From: a virus
Virus record (IMG/VR): IMGVR_UViG_3300005290_000006
Location: 1 to 23,621 of that record
Length of the DNA: 23,621 bases
Direction: 5' to 3' (one strand)
The position numbers and the translations under genes were made by a program. This document shows positions 7,565 through 14,612 of the stretch, piece by piece. Every line of letters begins with the position of its first letter. Within the stretch, counting starts at the first letter, position 1. The notes beneath the pieces were generated by a model, which was not told where the DNA came from, ran no database searches, and saw nothing but the letters and a program-made list of their open reading frames with translations.

Positions 7565-9181
7565 ATGAAACCCACAAACCTTAAGCTGTTAGACCCCAAG
7601 TCTATCACGCCGGGTATCTTCAAAGAGGTTACGTCCACAGACGCCTTTGAAGGCATGACCCAGAATTTGAATGACGAGGGTCTTTACTCCTTAGAGATCT
7701 TCGGTAAGTTGGGCAGTAAAGAGCGCGATAAAACAGAAGCGTTCATTGACACAAAGCTCGGGCTCTTCAACCCAACCTACTTCAAAGCACTGACACAAAT
7801 AAAATCTCTGTACCTGGGCATTCTCAAAGGAACGGAATACGCGGTGTGGGATTCGGAGGCTAAAGATTTCATAAAATCCAACATCCTCGATGGGGAAACG
7901 GGTTTTGCTTTCTTTATGCGTCACTTCCACGAAATCGTTCCGGCCAGCACCGATTCTTACAAACGTAAGCAACGGGTGAAAATGGTCAGCCAGTTCAAGG
8001 ACGTTGCGGTCAGTAATAAGGTGTTGGTGATCCCAGCGGGTTTGCGGGATATCCAGTTCCAACCGAACGGCGCACCGACTGAGCCAGAAATCACTGAGTT
8101 GTATCGCAAGCTGATCTTTAAGACTCGGGTGATTAGCCTGGGTAGTGCTCGTGATGCCGAGAACCCGCTGTACGACAACGTGCGCTGGGGCTTGCAGAAT
8201 GCGTTCAACGATATCGATGCTTACCTCTTCGGCCTGACTGAAGGTAAAGGTGGTCTGTTTCAGCGTCGTCTGTCCACTCGGGGTGTGGTGTCGGGTACGC
8301 GTAACGTTATTACTGCGCGTAAGGTTTCCCGGGCTGACTTGTTCAAGACCAACGGGGTTAACCCTAACTCGACGGACATCGGTCTGTACCAAGCGCTGTT
8401 GAACAACCAGTACGTCTGTGTCCATGCGCTGCTCAGCAAGTACCTGCAAAACATCTTCACCTCAGGCTCGCTGACCATCAAGCTGGTGAACACCAAGACC
8501 CTCGAATACGAGTACGTCGAAGTGGCACCAAGCACCGTGGAGAAGTGGTCGACCTTTACCGGGTTGAATAAACTCTTCAACGGCTTCTCGAACATCCACC
8601 TGCGCAACAAAGAGATCATCATCGACAAACACTACCTCGCTCTCGTTTATGACGACGGTGAAGACGTGTGTGTGTTGCATGACATCAACGATCTCCCAGA
8701 AGGCAAGGATCGGAAGTTCGTTAAACCCATCACGTACATGGAACTGTTCTACCTGTCGTGTCAATCGACCATCATGGAGCAAATCACCCAGCAGACACGT
8801 TATCCGATCATTGGTATCGGCTCTATCGTTCCGGCGAAGGTGAACCTGGTGACGATTGCGGGGGCTAAGCCTCGGACCATTCGCACCACGGAATGGGAAG
8901 TCATGGAAACCTGTATGCGGTATCCGCATCGGACTGAGCGGCCGGATTATTTCGACGCCATGTCGGTTGACCCTTCCCGTGAAGCAGGCTACGACTCCGA
9001 CCACGACGGTGACCAGCTGAACAGCAACAGCGTAAACGCCGAGGACAGTAAGAACGAAGTTCATGCCCTCTTTGGCAAGCGCGAGTACTACATCAGTGGC
9101 AGTGGTCGTTTCCTTTATGACCCTGTTAACGAACCGATTCTGTTTATGTTGAAGGCTGCTACGAGTGGCCTTGAGGAGTAA
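7565..9181 (+). CDS. Phage RNA polymerase beta'-like subunit, N-terminal catalytic part
   Basis: A 538-residue protein homologous to the part of bacterial RpoC that carries the active-site metal loop. The loop reads YDSDHDGDQ at 476-484, matching NADFDGDQ, so D479, D481 and D483 should bind the catalytic Mg2+. RYP at 412-414 matches the RAPTLHR region that precedes the loop in RpoC. The protein ends about 55 residues after the loop, so bridge helix, trigger loop and clamp are missing and must come from another gene outside the window. Giant phiKZ-type phages split beta' in this way. Position beside a virion hydrolase and prohead protease suggests the virion polymerase (phiKZ gp180-like), which is packaged and transcribes early genes; that assignment rests on remembered gene order. 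The start has AAAGGG upstream, and the stop is 2 nt before the beta start. Confidence 0.88.
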   Translation: MKPTNLKLLDPKSITPGIFKEVTSTDAFEGMTQNLNDEGLYSLEIFGKLGSKERDKTEAFIDTKLGLFNPTYFKALTQIKSLYLGILKGTEYAVWDSEAKDFIKSNILDGETGFAFFMRHFHEIVPASTDSYKRKQRVKMVSQFKDVAVSNKVLVIPAGLRDIQFQPNGAPTEPEITELYRKLIFKTRVISLGSARDAENPLYDNVRWGLQNAFNDIDAYLFGLTEGKGGLFQRRLSTRGVVSGTRNVITARKVSRADLFKTNGVNPNSTDIGLYQALLNNQYVCVHALLSKYLQNIFTSGSLTIKLVNTKTLEYEYVEVAPSTVEKWSTFTGLNKLFNGFSNIHLRNKEIIIDKHYLALVYDDGEDVCVLHDINDLPEGKDRKFVKPITYMELFYLSCQSTIMEQITQQTRYPIIGIGSIVPAKVNLVTIAGAKPRTIRTTEWEVMETCMRYPHRTERPDYFDAMSVDPSREAGYDSDHDGDQLNSNSVNAEDSKNEVHALFGKREYYISGSGRFLYDPVNEPILFMLKAATSGLEE

Positions 9182-9183
9182 CA

Positions 9184-12100
9184 ATGCGGCTTCTTACGTA
9201 CAGTGAGTTCTTCAAGCTGTTTGTGCAGCGGAAGAAACAAGAGCTGATCGACCCTAACTTCATCGGGGTGAGCGAGATTGTCATGCCGAAGATGGCTGTG
9301 GTGCACTACGTACCTAAGCTGGCTACGGAGTACGGTCCTTCGGTGTCGGAAGCCTTCATCTCCAACTTCCCCGAAAATGTCTTCATCGAGTTCGTTCCAC
9401 GTTTCACCCCGGTCATGGGTCATGGTCGTGTGCTGGCTTTCGACGTCAAGAAAGCTATCCAGTCCTATCGGGCTAGCCATTACACCTACAACTGGACCAA
9501 GGACATCAACACGGTTTACCGCCGGGCTGATGCGCTGATTGTTAAGAACTACGGGATCGCAGACAAGACCTGGGCGCAGCGTGCCGCTACCTTCGTTAAC
9601 TTCGAGGTTCACTACAACCGTCTGAACATGCTGATGGAAGGTGTGAACACGGAAGCAGAGAAGGCGACACGGAAGCAGTTCTTGCGGCTGGAACTGCCGA
9701 TCAACATTCCACCTTACAAAGAGTTGATGGTCGACTATGAAAAGTATATCGGAAGCTTTAAAGAAGGCCTTCCAGTTCCTTCTAACCAATCTCTTCGGGT
9801 AACCAAGGGTGAGGGTTCGTACTGGCTGCTGGATTTGCTGGCGTTCCTGTTGGGTGATTACGAGTACAGTCAGTTCAACAAGCTGACCGCTCAGGCGCAG
9901 GAAGACCTTCACTGGATCTTCACCGCCAACAGCAAAGCGTTGATCATCAACGTCAAGACGATCAAGGAATGGCTCGATGAGCTAAACCCGAAAGTCAAGG
10001 ATGGCGAGGACAAGCCACACGTCGTCTCGCCTAAGCGCCTTAACGTCACCAAGCGTTTCTACTTGGCACTGATGGGCTTGGTCCGCGGGGTTGCGGCCGA
10101 GAAGGATTTGATTGACGAGGAGAAGAGCGATGGAACAGGAGGAGCAGGAAACTCCGCCAAAGAAGACGACTCTTCAGTGGTTGAAGGAAAGGCGGGAACT
10201 GCGAAAGGGCAAGGACGAGCATCCGGTAACGGAAAAGCAACCTCGGCTACTGGCAAAGATGAGCTTGTGGATGATTATTCTGATGATCGCAGCCTCGTTG
10301 ATGTTTTCAGCAGTAACAAGGGAAACAACGACCCACTGGTGGAGGGGGCACGAGACGAGGGAGAACATACTCCTGATGAAGTTGCTGGGGACTGGACATC
10401 CGCGGTAGACGACTCGTTGCTGGAGGTTGAAACCACCACGGTTGAAATCAGCACCAAGAAGGATGCTTTCCCTACTCCTGAAAGCGGCATCCTGGCAGCA
10501 CTGGAAGAACGTGCAGCGGAAGGTCGCCTGAGTGTCGCAGAACAGAACTTGTTCATGCGCAAAGGCATGCGTTATCAGAGCATTGAAATGCCTAACGGTC
10601 AATCGTTGGGTGAGTTCATGCAGATCTCTCCTGAGGAGATCAACAGTCTGGATGGCAAGATCGAAGCAAACTTCATCACAGTCCTTGATGAGAGTATGTT
10701 GCGTAGCCGTTCGGCTGTTCTGAAGCAAGATTACGCCCAGCGCTTCCTGCACAAAGATATCGCCAAGATGGTGGTCGGTATCCAGAACGCGGGTATCGCG
10801 GTATCAGATTATCGCCCGGACATCATCTCGGGTGTGGAAGGTTCGTACGACGTTCTCAACATCCAGCTCCATCCGGTTGATGGTAGCCAGAGCACGCACC
10901 AGATTCGTCTGCCGCGGGTTCAGAAGGATGCGACGTTTACTGTGGACGGCGTTAAGCAACACATGCAGCTGCAACGCATGGAACTGCCGATCCGCAAGAT
11001 CAACGCTTTCAAGGTTGCTTTGACCAGCTACTATGACCGCAAGCTCATGGTGCTGCGCAGTCAGAAGGTGGTGGACGATTACGGTCTGTGGCTGGTTAAA
11101 CAGATTCGTAACCGGGGTGAACGAAGAGAGGGTGTGATTCCTCCTTTGGTCTACAGCCTGGGTACAGGGTACAACCCTGAATACGTTTCTCCGCGTATCT
11201 ACAGCATTCTGGCGAAGAAGTTCAAGCACATTACCGTGACGGGCTTTGGGCAGCTGAATTTCCAGATTGACGAGTTGCTCGACAAGTACCCTGAGTACAA
11301 GCGCTACACCAAGAAAGATGCATTCCTGGTGGGCGTTAAAGATGGTCAGCCTCTGACGATCGATGGGTTCGGTAACCTCTTCCAAGGGGACACCGAAGTC
11401 GGTACGGTAGAAAGCCTGATGGGGATTAACCTGTCACGCGCACCTATCGAGTATGCGGTGATCAACATCAGCGGGTATTACTTCCCGATTGGTGTGGTGC
11501 TCTGCTACTACTTCGGTATCGACAAACTGATCCAGGTCACCAAGGCTACCACTCGCACCGTTCCAATGGGCACTAAGCCTAAGCTCGGTGAAGATGAGTA
11601 CGCCATTGCGTTCAACGACGAGTACCTGATCTTCAACCGTCGTGAGAAGTTGGCCAGCCTGATCTTCGGTGGTATGCCTAAGCTGAACAACATCGGTAAC
11701 TTCAGCCGTGTCGATCTCAACGAGAAAGGCATCTGGGTTCCGTTGATGGGCGACCCTAAGGTTAAGCCTCAGCAGTTCAAAGAAATGAAGAACCTGTTCG
11801 ACCTCTTCATTGACCCGGTCACCAAGGAAGAACTGGCGAAGATGGGTCACGCTACATCGTTCCACTACCTGTTGATCGATGCGGTGAAAATGCTGGAAAC
11901 GGATTACACCCGGCATGAAGTGGAGTTGGAAGAACAGCGTATCGTGGGCTACGAACGTTTTGCTGGTCACGTGTACCGGGAGCTGGTGAAAGCCATCCGT
12001 CAATACCGGAACAAAGGCAAAGAGCGTAAGCACACGATCGACATCAACCCTGAAGCGGTGATCCTCAACATCATTACCGATACCTCGGTGAACTTGGTGG

Positions 12101-13512
12101 AGGAGGTTAACCCAATCCACCAGTTGAAGGATCAGGAGGAAGTAACCTTCGGCGGTGTGGGTGGTCGTAGCGAAATCACGATGGTCAAGCGGGCACGTCA
12201 GCAGTTGGAAAGCTACCGGGGCAAGATCTCGGAAGCGAACAAGGACAGCGGTAAGGTAGGCTTCGTAACCTATCTGACTTCTGACCCTGGTATCAAAGAC
12301 TTCCGTGGCAACATCGCGGTGGGCGAGAAACCAACCAACGCTGGTCTGGTGTCGGTAACGGGTAACCTGCAATACGGTGTGGGTCACGATGACTCGAAAC
12401 GCTCTGTCTTTACCTCGACTCAAGCGAGTCAGGCAGTCAGTGCAATGAACTACACCCCAAACATCCTCCGTACAGGCTATGAGAACGTCGTAGCGCACCG
12501 TACGTCCGAACTGTACAGCAAGGTAGCCGCTGAAGCAGGCAAGGTCACTGAAGTGTCTGACGACGCTCTGCGGGTGACTTATAAGGACGGCACCACTGAC
12601 GTCTACCCTCTGGGGTTGGCAATCGGTGAGGCCAGCGGTGAGTACCATCGGCACACACGCGTTACCGACTTGAAACCCGGTGACACCTTTAATAAGGGTG
12701 ATGTGATCGGTTGGGATGTACAGTGGTTTGCTCGTGATCCGTTCTGCCCAGGTCAGGTGGCGTGGAAGGCAGGTCGCATGGTGCGGATTGCCTTGGTAGA
12801 AGATCAGGACGTGTACGAGGATAGCTTGGCTATCGCGCATTCATTGGCGATGGAAGGGGTTACTCCGTACATCAAGCCGAAGCGTTTTGCGATCGATGTG
12901 AATCAGAACATCGAGATGATGGTGAAAGAGGGTGATTCCGTTGACTACGACTCGATTTTATGCAACGTTGAAGACGACCATTTGGTCGCGGATACTGCTG
13001 AAAGCGCAATCGCAGCCGAGGTGAACAAACTGGGCATCCGTCAGGTTCGCTCCAGCCACCATGGCAAGGTCATCAAAATCGAAGTGGTGTACAACTCGCC
13101 GCTCGAGGAAATGTCGGACAGCGTTCGGAAGTTTATCAACGCTCAAGACAAAACCCGCAAGAAGAAAGCCGACATCGAAGGGTCCGATGTAACCAAGGGG
13201 GCTGTGTCCAACAGCCTGAACGTGAACAAGCCGATTCTGTCGCCTGGTAAAGCGTTCGTCACCATCCTGGTTGAATCGATGGACCCAAGCACCAACGCTG
13301 ACAAATATGTTCTCGCTAACCAGATGAAGGGCACAGTGGGTCGCATCATGCACAAACCCCTGATGACCGAAGATGGTCGAGAAGTCCTGATCAAGTCCAG
13401 CCTTAAAGGTATGTTTAACCGCATGGTACTGAGCTTCCGTAACAAGCTGGTAAGTTGTGAGCTCACTATCGCGGTGTCTAAACAGGCCATCGCCATTTAT
13501 CGAGGTAAGTAA
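9184..13512 (+). CDS. Phage RNA polymerase beta-like subunit with extra N-terminal domain
   Basis: A 1442-residue protein with RpoB landmarks in order: TFTVDG near 583-590 (RpoB GTFIINGAERV); VGHDDSKR with H1068-R1073 (RpoB EHDDANR); a GDTFNKGDVIG stretch; VYEDS at 1210-1214 (RpoB NFEDS); and DKYVLANQMKG, whose K1374 and K1382 match the two active-site lysines of RpoB DKMAGRHGNKG with identical spacing. The protein ends about 60 residues later, so the RpoB C-terminal clamp part is lacking. RpoB's first listed motif lies near residue 130 in E. coli but near 585 here. The first 310 residues are therefore an extra, phage-specific domain, joined by an acidic, Gly/Ser-rich linker (about 315-430) that overlaps another candidate gene. 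GAGGAG precedes the ATG. It pairs with the beta' gene 2 nt upstream, probably as the virion polymerase (phiKZ gp178-like). Confidence 0.88.
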   Translation: MRLLTYSEFFKLFVQRKKQELIDPNFIGVSEIVMPKMAVVHYVPKLATEYGPSVSEAFISNFPENVFIEFVPRFTPVMGHGRVLAFDVKKAIQSYRASHYTYNWTKDINTVYRRADALIVKNYGIADKTWAQRAATFVNFEVHYNRLNMLMEGVNTEAEKATRKQFLRLELPINIPPYKELMVDYEKYIGSFKEGLPVPSNQSLRVTKGEGSYWLLDLLAFLLGDYEYSQFNKLTAQAQEDLHWIFTANSKALIINVKTIKEWLDELNPKVKDGEDKPHVVSPKRLNVTKRFYLALMGLVRGVAAEKDLIDEEKSDGTGGAGNSAKEDDSSVVEGKAGTAKGQGRASGNGKATSATGKDELVDDYSDDRSLVDVFSSNKGNNDPLVEGARDEGEHTPDEVAGDWTSAVDDSLLEVETTTVEISTKKDAFPTPESGILAALEERAAEGRLSVAEQNLFMRKGMRYQSIEMPNGQSLGEFMQISPEEINSLDGKIEANFITVLDESMLRSRSAVLKQDYAQRFLHKDIAKMVVGIQNAGIAVSDYRPDIISGVEGSYDVLNIQLHPVDGSQSTHQIRLPRVQKDATFTVDGVKQHMQLQRMELPIRKINAFKVALTSYYDRKLMVLRSQKVVDDYGLWLVKQIRNRGERREGVIPPLVYSLGTGYNPEYVSPRIYSILAKKFKHITVTGFGQLNFQIDELLDKYPEYKRYTKKDAFLVGVKDGQPLTIDGFGNLFQGDTEVGTVESLMGINLSRAPIEYAVINISGYYFPIGVVLCYYFGIDKLIQVTKATTRTVPMGTKPKLGEDEYAIAFNDEYLIFNRREKLASLIFGGMPKLNNIGNFSRVDLNEKGIWVPLMGDPKVKPQQFKEMKNLFDLFIDPVTKEELAKMGHATSFHYLLIDAVKMLETDYTRHEVELEEQRIVGYERFAGHVYRELVKAIRQYRNKGKERKHTIDINPEAVILNIITDTSVNLVEEVNPIHQLKDQEEVTFGGVGGRSEITMVKRARQQLESYRGKISEANKDSGKVGFVTYLTSDPGIKDFRGNIAVGEKPTNAGLVSVTGNLQYGVGHDDSKRSVFTSTQASQAVSAMNYTPNILRTGYENVVAHRTSELYSKVAAEAGKVTEVSDDALRVTYKDGTTDVYPLGLAIGEASGEYHRHTRVTDLKPGDTFNKGDVIGWDVQWFARDPFCPGQVAWKAGRMVRIALVEDQDVYEDSLAIAHSLAMEGVTPYIKPKRFAIDVNQNIEMMVKEGDSVDYDSILCNVEDDHLVADTAESAIAAEVNKLGIRQVRSSHHGKVIKIEVVYNSPLEEMSDSVRKFINAQDKTRKKKADIEGSDVTKGAVSNSLNVNKPILSPGKAFVTILVESMDPSTNADKYVLANQMKGTVGRIMHKPLMTEDGREVLIKSSLKGMFNRMVLSFRNKLVSCELTIAVSKQAIAIYRGK
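10130..10408 (+). CDS. Candidate overprinted gene: single-pass membrane protein nested in the beta gene
   Basis: A 92-codon frame in the +1 register relative to beta. Its ATG has AGGAG at 10118-10122 with 7-nt spacing, as good as any site in the window. The protein has a charged N-terminal 43 residues (about equal Glu and Lys/Arg, ending RLLAK), one hydrophobic helix at about 44-62 (MSLWMIILMIAASLMFSAV) and a 30-residue tail with HWWRGHE. Positive charge before the helix suggests N-in, C-out topology. The beta reading over this interval is low complexity and uses GGA, ACA, GCA and CGA codons that are uncommon in the rest of the gene, whereas the nested frame uses ordinary codons (CTG, AAG, GAG, CCG). 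That supports selection on the nested frame. The endolysin follows 3 kb downstream, so a holin- or spanin-like role is possible. I recognise no family. Confidence 0.55.
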   Translation: MEQEEQETPPKKTTLQWLKERRELRKGKDEHPVTEKQPRLLAKMSLWMIILMIAASLMFSAVTRETTTHWWRGHETRENILLMKLLGTGHPR

Positions 13513-13514
13513 CC

Positions 13515-14408
13515 ATGAACTACAGAAACTTCAACGGCATTCGCGATGTCCAAGTGATGTTGAAAGAAACCGGTCTTTACACTTCGTCCATTGATGGTAA
13601 GTGGGGAAGCGGCAGTTTGAACGCATCCATCTCTCTGGTGTCTGCGTATTTCCGCCAAGCGACCGGTCAGCCTCTGCCCAACATCCCGGCTTCGACTGTA
13701 CCGGGGGACGAGATGGCGCAAGTCATCGTTAAGCTCCAGGACCTGTTGAAAGCCGCCGGTCTGTATGACGGTAAAGTGGACGCTACCTACGGCATCGGTA
13801 CCAAGTCTGGTTTCCGTAAAGCCGCAGATGCCTACATCTTGGCTAACCGCCTGCCTCGTTATAAGGCTGCGTGGAGTGTCGTGGTGTCGAAGGAGTTTCT
13901 GGATGCGGTCATCGCGGGTTGCAAAGCCCGCAACTGGCCTGCTGAAGCGGTTGATTGGCTGATGTCCTGCATGCACTTCGAAAGCGGCGGGACGTTTAGC
14001 CCAACCAAACAGAACATGGCAGGCGCCAAGTACTTCGGGCTGATTCAGTTCGGTGACATGGCTGCTGCGGATCTCGGTACGACCACTGCTGAGCTGATCA
14101 AGTTGTCGCAGCTGGAGCAACTCAAGTGGGTCTTCAAGTACTTCGACATGTGGGCGAAGCGCGGCAAGACTTACACCCAGCTGGAAGACTTCTACCTCAC
14201 GATCTTTTACCCGAAAGCGGTGGGTGCGAAAGCCGACACTGTTATCTTCCGTAAGGACGTTGAAGCCGAGAAGAAGGGTTACGCCCAGAACAACGGCTTC
14301 GACTACAACAAGGACGGGGCGATCACCGTGGGCGAGATCAACTCCCGCCTGTACGACGTTTACTACAAAGGCATGGACACTGTGAATCGTGTTCTTGCTG
14401 CGGCTTAA
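13515..14408 (+). CDS. Modular endolysin: two peptidoglycan-binding domains plus lytic transglycosylase/lysozyme domain
   Basis: A 297-residue protein that degrades murein to release progeny. Two N-terminal peptidoglycan-binding repeats are visible: about 8-50 (VQVMLKETGLYTSSIDGKWG) and about 68-110 (LQDLLKAAGLYDGKVDATYG). The catalytic part begins near 120. HFESGGTFSP places the catalytic Glu at E156, followed by YFGLIQF as in soluble lytic transglycosylase folds. There is no signal peptide, so export needs a holin or equivalent. The organisation matches phiKZ gp144 (binding domain first, catalytic domain last). An EF-hand-like loop D263-YNKDGAITVG-E274 lies near the C-terminus. Start ATG follows GAGGTAAG that overlaps the end of beta. 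Placement behind the polymerase genes puts it in the same operon. Confidence 0.88.
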   Translation: MNYRNFNGIRDVQVMLKETGLYTSSIDGKWGSGSLNASISLVSAYFRQATGQPLPNIPASTVPGDEMAQVIVKLQDLLKAAGLYDGKVDATYGIGTKSGFRKAADAYILANRLPRYKAAWSVVVSKEFLDAVIAGCKARNWPAEAVDWLMSCMHFESGGTFSPTKQNMAGAKYFGLIQFGDMAAADLGTTTAELIKLSQLEQLKWVFKYFDMWAKRGKTYTQLEDFYLTIFYPKAVGAKADTVIFRKDVEAEKKGYAQNNGFDYNKDGAITVGEINSRLYDVYYKGMDTVNRVLAAA

Positions 14409-14438: not shown

Positions 14439-14612
14439 ATGAACCAACAGACTTTCATTCAAGACACGGTGACTATCGCTAACACGGTAGAACTGGTGAA
14501 AAGCACTATCGACAAGGTTGGGTTGGAGTTCATCGCTCCGTTGGACCCGGCTATCCAGGACGAACACATCAGCAAGGCCATCACCGCTGCTGTGAAAGGG
14601 GAAGCGCAATGA
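14439..14612 (+). CDS. Small hypothetical protein (57 aa)
   Basis: A 57-codon frame from ATG (AAGGG about 10 nt upstream) to a TGA that overlaps the next start in ATGA. The protein begins MNQQTFIQDTVTIANTV and ends KAITAAVKGEAQ; it is mildly acidic, probably helical, with no membrane segment or cysteine. Tight packing, its own ribosome binding site and translational coupling to the 515-aa gene argue that it is real. I recognise no family; a small virion or chaperone-like partner of the next protein is only a guess. Confidence 0.7.
   Translation: MNQQTFIQDTVTIANTVELVKSTIDKVGLEFIAPLDPAIQDEHISKAITAAVKGEAQ

Follow-up and report, generated by a model that had tools for sequence, protein, structure and literature searches.

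A gene for a single-pass membrane protein is very probably encoded at positions 10130–10408 of the analyzed viral DNA, overprinted in the gene for the virion RNA polymerase beta subunit of EL/OBP-type phages. The window, i.e., the whole analyzed stretch of 23,621 nucleotides, is taken from the start of a 133-kb viral record (IMGVR_UViG_3300005290_000006) and carries a row of genes on the + strand. The beta subunit gene (9184–13512, +; 1442 aa) is of the phiKZ gp178 type, gp178 being the beta subunit packaged in the phiKZ virion (PMC11620839). It is preceded by another RNA polymerase subunit gene (7565–9181, +; phrog_2986, E = 1.7e-206) and followed by an endolysin gene (13515–14408, +), which occupies the same position as EL188 and OBPgp279 and encodes a PG-binding motif, an SLT-type lytic domain, and an EF-hand-like C-terminus. 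The genes further along the row correspond to virion proteins in annotated relatives. Matches to the beta subunit were found in 295 phage records, 101 of them covering at least 80% of its length, with EL-type phages at the top (58% identity). The search of solved structures with the beta subunit gave no sequence match. A short ORF of 57 aa without TM segments was also found at 14439–14612, overlapping the start of the gene at 14609; similar small genes come after the endolysin gene in annotated relatives, some of them called virion structural.

The nested ORF (10130–10408, +) has 92 codons and lies in the +1 frame relative to the beta ORF. It has its own translation start at the sequence level: a Shine-Dalgarno motif AGGAG (10118–10122, +) is located 7 nt upstream of the ATG, exactly as described in the first-pass annotation, which had been made from the window's sequence alone. 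In the window's clade, the start ATG is found at one aligned position, with a putative Shine-Dalgarno-like sequence before it. Such a sequence was also found at the matching start in most relatives, being only 3 nt long in several OBP-type members. The encoded protein consists of a basic N-terminus, a single hydrophobic segment at residues 44–62 (MSLWMIILMIAASLMFSAV; codons 10259–10315, +), and a predicted helical C-terminal tail of only ~30 aa; it has no lipobox. Thus, TM prediction agrees with the single transmembrane helix proposed earlier. The accompanying claim of positive residues on the N-side is correct, but Lys and Arg residues are equally numerous near the helix on the C-side in this phage (3 vs. 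3). The N-in topology is clearer in relatives than in the window's phage; within the clade of the window it is ambiguous. For the nested protein, AlphaFold gave a model of low confidence (pLDDT 64). Comparison with Pfam and PHROG profiles revealed no significant match and no consistent family, the best E-values being 0.0053 (phrog_13924, unknown function, over a 15-residue stretch of the window's protein) and 0.041.

Across the nested ORF, the beta frame is rich in Gly, Asp, Ala, and Ser and, as was noticed in the first-pass annotation, contains codons otherwise little used in this gene. GGA accounts for 10 of the 15 Gly codons inside the nested ORF vs. 1 of 91 outside; the corresponding counts are 2/3 vs. 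3/71 for CGA, 4/10 vs. 18/87 for GCA, and 2/6 vs. 7/71 for ACA. The nested frame has an ordinary codon choice, its GC3 (0.67) being identical to that of the rest of beta, whereas GC3 of beta inside the nested ORF is 0.41. The chance openness of the frame was analyzed by synonymous-codon shuffling with the beta protein fixed, counting open +1 frames of at least 80 codons at this site. Such frames appeared with P = 0.83 in the window and 0.05–0.98 in relatives; an open frame together with a TM segment was rarer (0.06). The length of the ORF alone is therefore weak evidence, and the case is carried by conservation. The high frequency of open frames under shuffling, together with further long +1 ORFs in beta, speaks for an alternative explanation, in which the open frame is an untranslated by-product of beta codon usage and linker composition.

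Substitutions on the shared bases argue against such a by-product. In this overlap, position 3 of beta codons corresponds to position 2 of nested codons, and position 1 of beta codons to position 3 of nested codons. Outside the nested ORF, substitutions at beta position 3 are ~2–5 times as frequent as those at position 1, whereas inside it substitutions at position 1 are at least as frequent as those at position 3. This shift was found in all ten analyzed phage pairs (Fisher p of 1.7e-5 to 1.8e-8 per pair), which have no sequence in common, yet the branches between pairs are not all independent. The summed position 3/position 1 ratio falls below 1 only in intervals between 10114 and 10413 and is lowest, 0.38, at the TM codons (10234–10323), i.e., the stretch of strongest nested-frame constraint. 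Among the long +1 frames within the first 1000 codons of beta, the periodicity is flipped only at the nested ORF. In nine pairs, some of them sharing sequences, changes that altered beta but left the nested protein as it was were 1.79 times as frequent as expected, those that altered the nested protein but not beta only 0.76 times; in the same pairs, 3 nested-frame stops were observed vs. ~20 expected. Judged from these comparisons, it is chiefly the nested frame that is under selection in the overlap, whereas beta is a tolerant linker there; the earlier suggestion of a constrained nested frame is thus borne out. In the AlphaFold model of a beta fragment, which is weak as a whole, pLDDT is below 50 at residues 312–429 (10117–10470, +) and ~25 in the middle of this stretch, the lowest values of the fragment, consistent with the predicted disordered linker.

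An open +1 frame encoding a related one-TM protein was found in all 40 loci examined, namely 36 loci plus four further contigs. These loci belong to the EL, OBP, RisingSun, Miami, pTD1, and Aeromonas lineages, spanning Pseudomonas to Vibrio phages, and some of the sequences are near-identical to each other. They include 16 metagenomic or EL loci; RisingSun, EL-like HHBS8, Miami, pTD1, FishSpeaker, OBP, Survivor, and pEt-SU; AH04, SXP01, N1M2, Yubaba, PS1, ZPAH34, and LAh10; Aphrodite1, Kc263, AhC3_1, and CF8; and the four further contigs. In an alignment of 30 nested proteins, exactly one TM segment was predicted in 30/30, and the profile built from these proteins recovers the locus in carriers with E-values of 1e-11 to 1e-31. 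In the window's closer clade, the residues M1, W17, R21, K26, S56, M58, S60, R77, and G89 (numbering of the clade alignment) are invariant. Relatives with an intact beta gene and stops in the +1 frame, named beforehand as evidence against the nested gene, were not found in the EL/OBP-type clade. Thus, the second frame is both conserved as a protein and under selection, and the real overprinted membrane-protein gene proposed in the first-pass annotation is supported. With the inverted periodicity in ten pairs, the depletion of nested stops, and the conserved TM protein all standing against it, an untranslated by-product is extremely improbable. The profile search for standalone copies of the nested protein in 16 whole genomes revealed none at a convincing E-value.

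With the same profile at E ≤ 1, no match was found in seven complete genomes, namely Eowyn, PhiPA3, SPN3US, KpSz_1, pir03, Ea35-70, and the phiKZ-like KEN51. The nested gene is thus absent from Ea35-70 and from the phiKZ-, SPN3US-, and Eowyn-type phages. In all annotated carriers examined, an endolysin-type or similar-sized gene is located directly 3' of the beta gene; two such genes, OBPgp279 and EL188, encode biochemically characterized endolysins (PMC3352856). A strict co-occurrence of the nested gene with the adjacent endolysin gene was considered and rejected, because in Ea35-70 (locus L034, 7609–8322) an endolysin-type gene follows beta in a genome without the nested gene. This gene order is thus independent of the overprint and not sufficient for it. 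Carriage of the nested gene tracks phylogeny, and so does the position of the endolysin gene.

Overlapped two-component spanins were listed by Kongari et al. for EL, OBP, phiKZ, 201phi2-1, and Ea35-70 (PMC6139136). The pairs were located here as OBP gp140/gp139 and EL gp111/gp110, at ~80–135 kb from the nested gene. A convergent gene for a hairpin TM protein adjoins these pairs (OBP gp138, 124723–125373; EL gp109, 115514–115885); the protein has two TM segments in the EL type, apparently doubled in the OBP/Aeromonas type. Almost every carrier surveyed, and Ea35-70 as well, has a similar spanin/hairpin arrangement, whole or in part, beside RuvC (loci L081–L096). In the EL genome (NC_007623, 115947–116631; locus L080, DNA L073), gp110 is annotated from 116180 with a length of 234 bp. 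Read from the start at 116396 (− strand), it encodes a 149-aa lipoprotein with a lipobox that overlaps gp111, by which features EL gp110 is an o-spanin with a truncated annotation.

The first-pass annotation had offered a holin, a spanin, or a membrane anchor as possible identities of the nested protein. If the nested gene encoded an i-spanin or o-spanin, it would have a precedent in the lambda Rz1-type spanins, which sit in the +1 frame (PMC6139136). In a two-component spanin, a TM i-spanin whose periplasmic domain is long is paired with a lipoprotein from an overlapping or embedded gene. The nested protein does not have these features: it contains no lipobox, its tail is only ~30 aa long, and separate overlapped i-/o-spanin pairs sit elsewhere in OBP and EL. 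Since the spanin pair is encoded elsewhere, the nested protein is not the spanin, and the spanin guess, now contradicted, is very improbable. The likeness to lambda Rz1 in Rz concerns the arrangement, likewise a gene for a small membrane-associated protein wholly inside the +1 frame of another gene and often missed by gene callers (PMC6139136). The present case differs in that the surrounding gene encodes an RNA polymerase subunit, the protein has one TM helix and no lipobox, and a separate spanin pair is present in the same phages.

The nested gene is probably translated from its own Shine-Dalgarno sequence on a presumed polymerase/endolysin mRNA, presumably late in infection. The protein is probably located in the host inner membrane, with N-in/C-out as the likely orientation. 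A role in lysis control is our leading guess for it, and a tentative one: it could act in lysis timing or membrane permeabilization, as a second holin or antiholin working with the downstream endolysin. This protein has one TM segment, and 3.1 kb separate its gene from the endolysin gene downstream, which is read from the same strand and is of the EL188/OBPgp279 kind (PMC3352856); the distance is in line with the ~3 kb given earlier. Against this role, the hairpin TM protein beside the spanins, present with them in almost every carrier surveyed, is a better holin candidate, which weakens the holin reading of the nested protein. Moreover, the lysis genes of Ea35-70, including the endolysin gene after beta, are present without the nested gene, so lysis is apparently possible without the nested protein. 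The hairpin proteins EL gp109 and OBP gp138 are also small membrane proteins of the same phages and candidate lysis gene products; unlike the nested protein, they are encoded by separate genes, have two or four TM segments, and are found also in Ea35-70. Among known lysis proteins, the class III holin T of phage T4 has one TM segment, a cytoplasmic N-terminus, and a periplasmic C-terminus with a large periplasmic domain. This layout is the one predicted for the nested protein, but the nested tail is only ~30 aa long, and a hairpin holin-like protein is encoded beside the spanins. Lysis proteins of single-stranded RNA phages, such as L of MS2, are overprinted, and their single hydrophobic segment comes after a basic N-terminus. 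The nested protein resembles L in both respects, with no homology claimed; the nested gene, however, belongs to a jumbo phage with a dsDNA genome, which encodes an endolysin and spanins of its own.

Two further roles were considered. The protein may be a membrane factor for virion assembly or for polymerase packaging or delivery, e.g., an inner-membrane tether of polymerase or capsids, with nested expression in step with beta. The location of the nested gene within a virion polymerase gene and among virion structural genes, the seemingly complete lysis module without it, and the disruption of capsid assembly by targeting of phiKZ gp178 (PMC11620839) are in favor of this role. Nevertheless, phiKZ- and SPN3US-type phages have the homologous polymerase gene without the nested protein, the overprinted position tells nothing firm about function, and we consider the assembly role rather doubtful. 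Small basic single-TM proteins can also serve in host takeover or superinfection exclusion. Such a membrane-acting role, apart from lysis or assembly, would fit the distribution confined to one clade, but the late-gene setting makes exclusion less likely, and the only family match is a weak one to SieB in a single member (E = 0.16); this role is unlikely. Taken more broadly, the chances are about even that these proteins form a new lineage-wide membrane-protein family, born by overprinting in a viral multisubunit RNA polymerase gene, whose members either switch a membrane event late in infection (lysis timing) or tether the virion polymerase to the membrane.

Genes for membrane proteins nested in other genes are known in phages; Pfam, PHROGs, and the literature searched, mostly non-subscription papers without preprints, gave no record of this family, its surrounding gene, or its spread over a jumbo-phage lineage. 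Nor was any nested gene in phiKZ-type polymerase genes found in that literature. The nested ORF is absent from the annotation of all annotated records examined, gene callers having missed it in every case. Thus, an unannotated conserved gene is added to the model phages EL, OBP, RisingSun, and pTD1. The locus also provides a clean case of a nested gene shaping a linker in the frame of its surrounding gene.

In Aeromonas phage AhC3_1 (locus L041, 6751–8676), the gene after beta encodes a 641-aa protein. A weak LAGLIDADG-like match lies between its PG-binding motif and its lytic part at the C-terminus, which suggests an inserted endonuclease or intein. In HHBS8 (L020) and FishSpeaker (L023), HNH endonuclease genes interrupt the polymerase genes or lie next to them, an arrangement that recalls the intron of PhiPA3 gp210 (PMC11620839).
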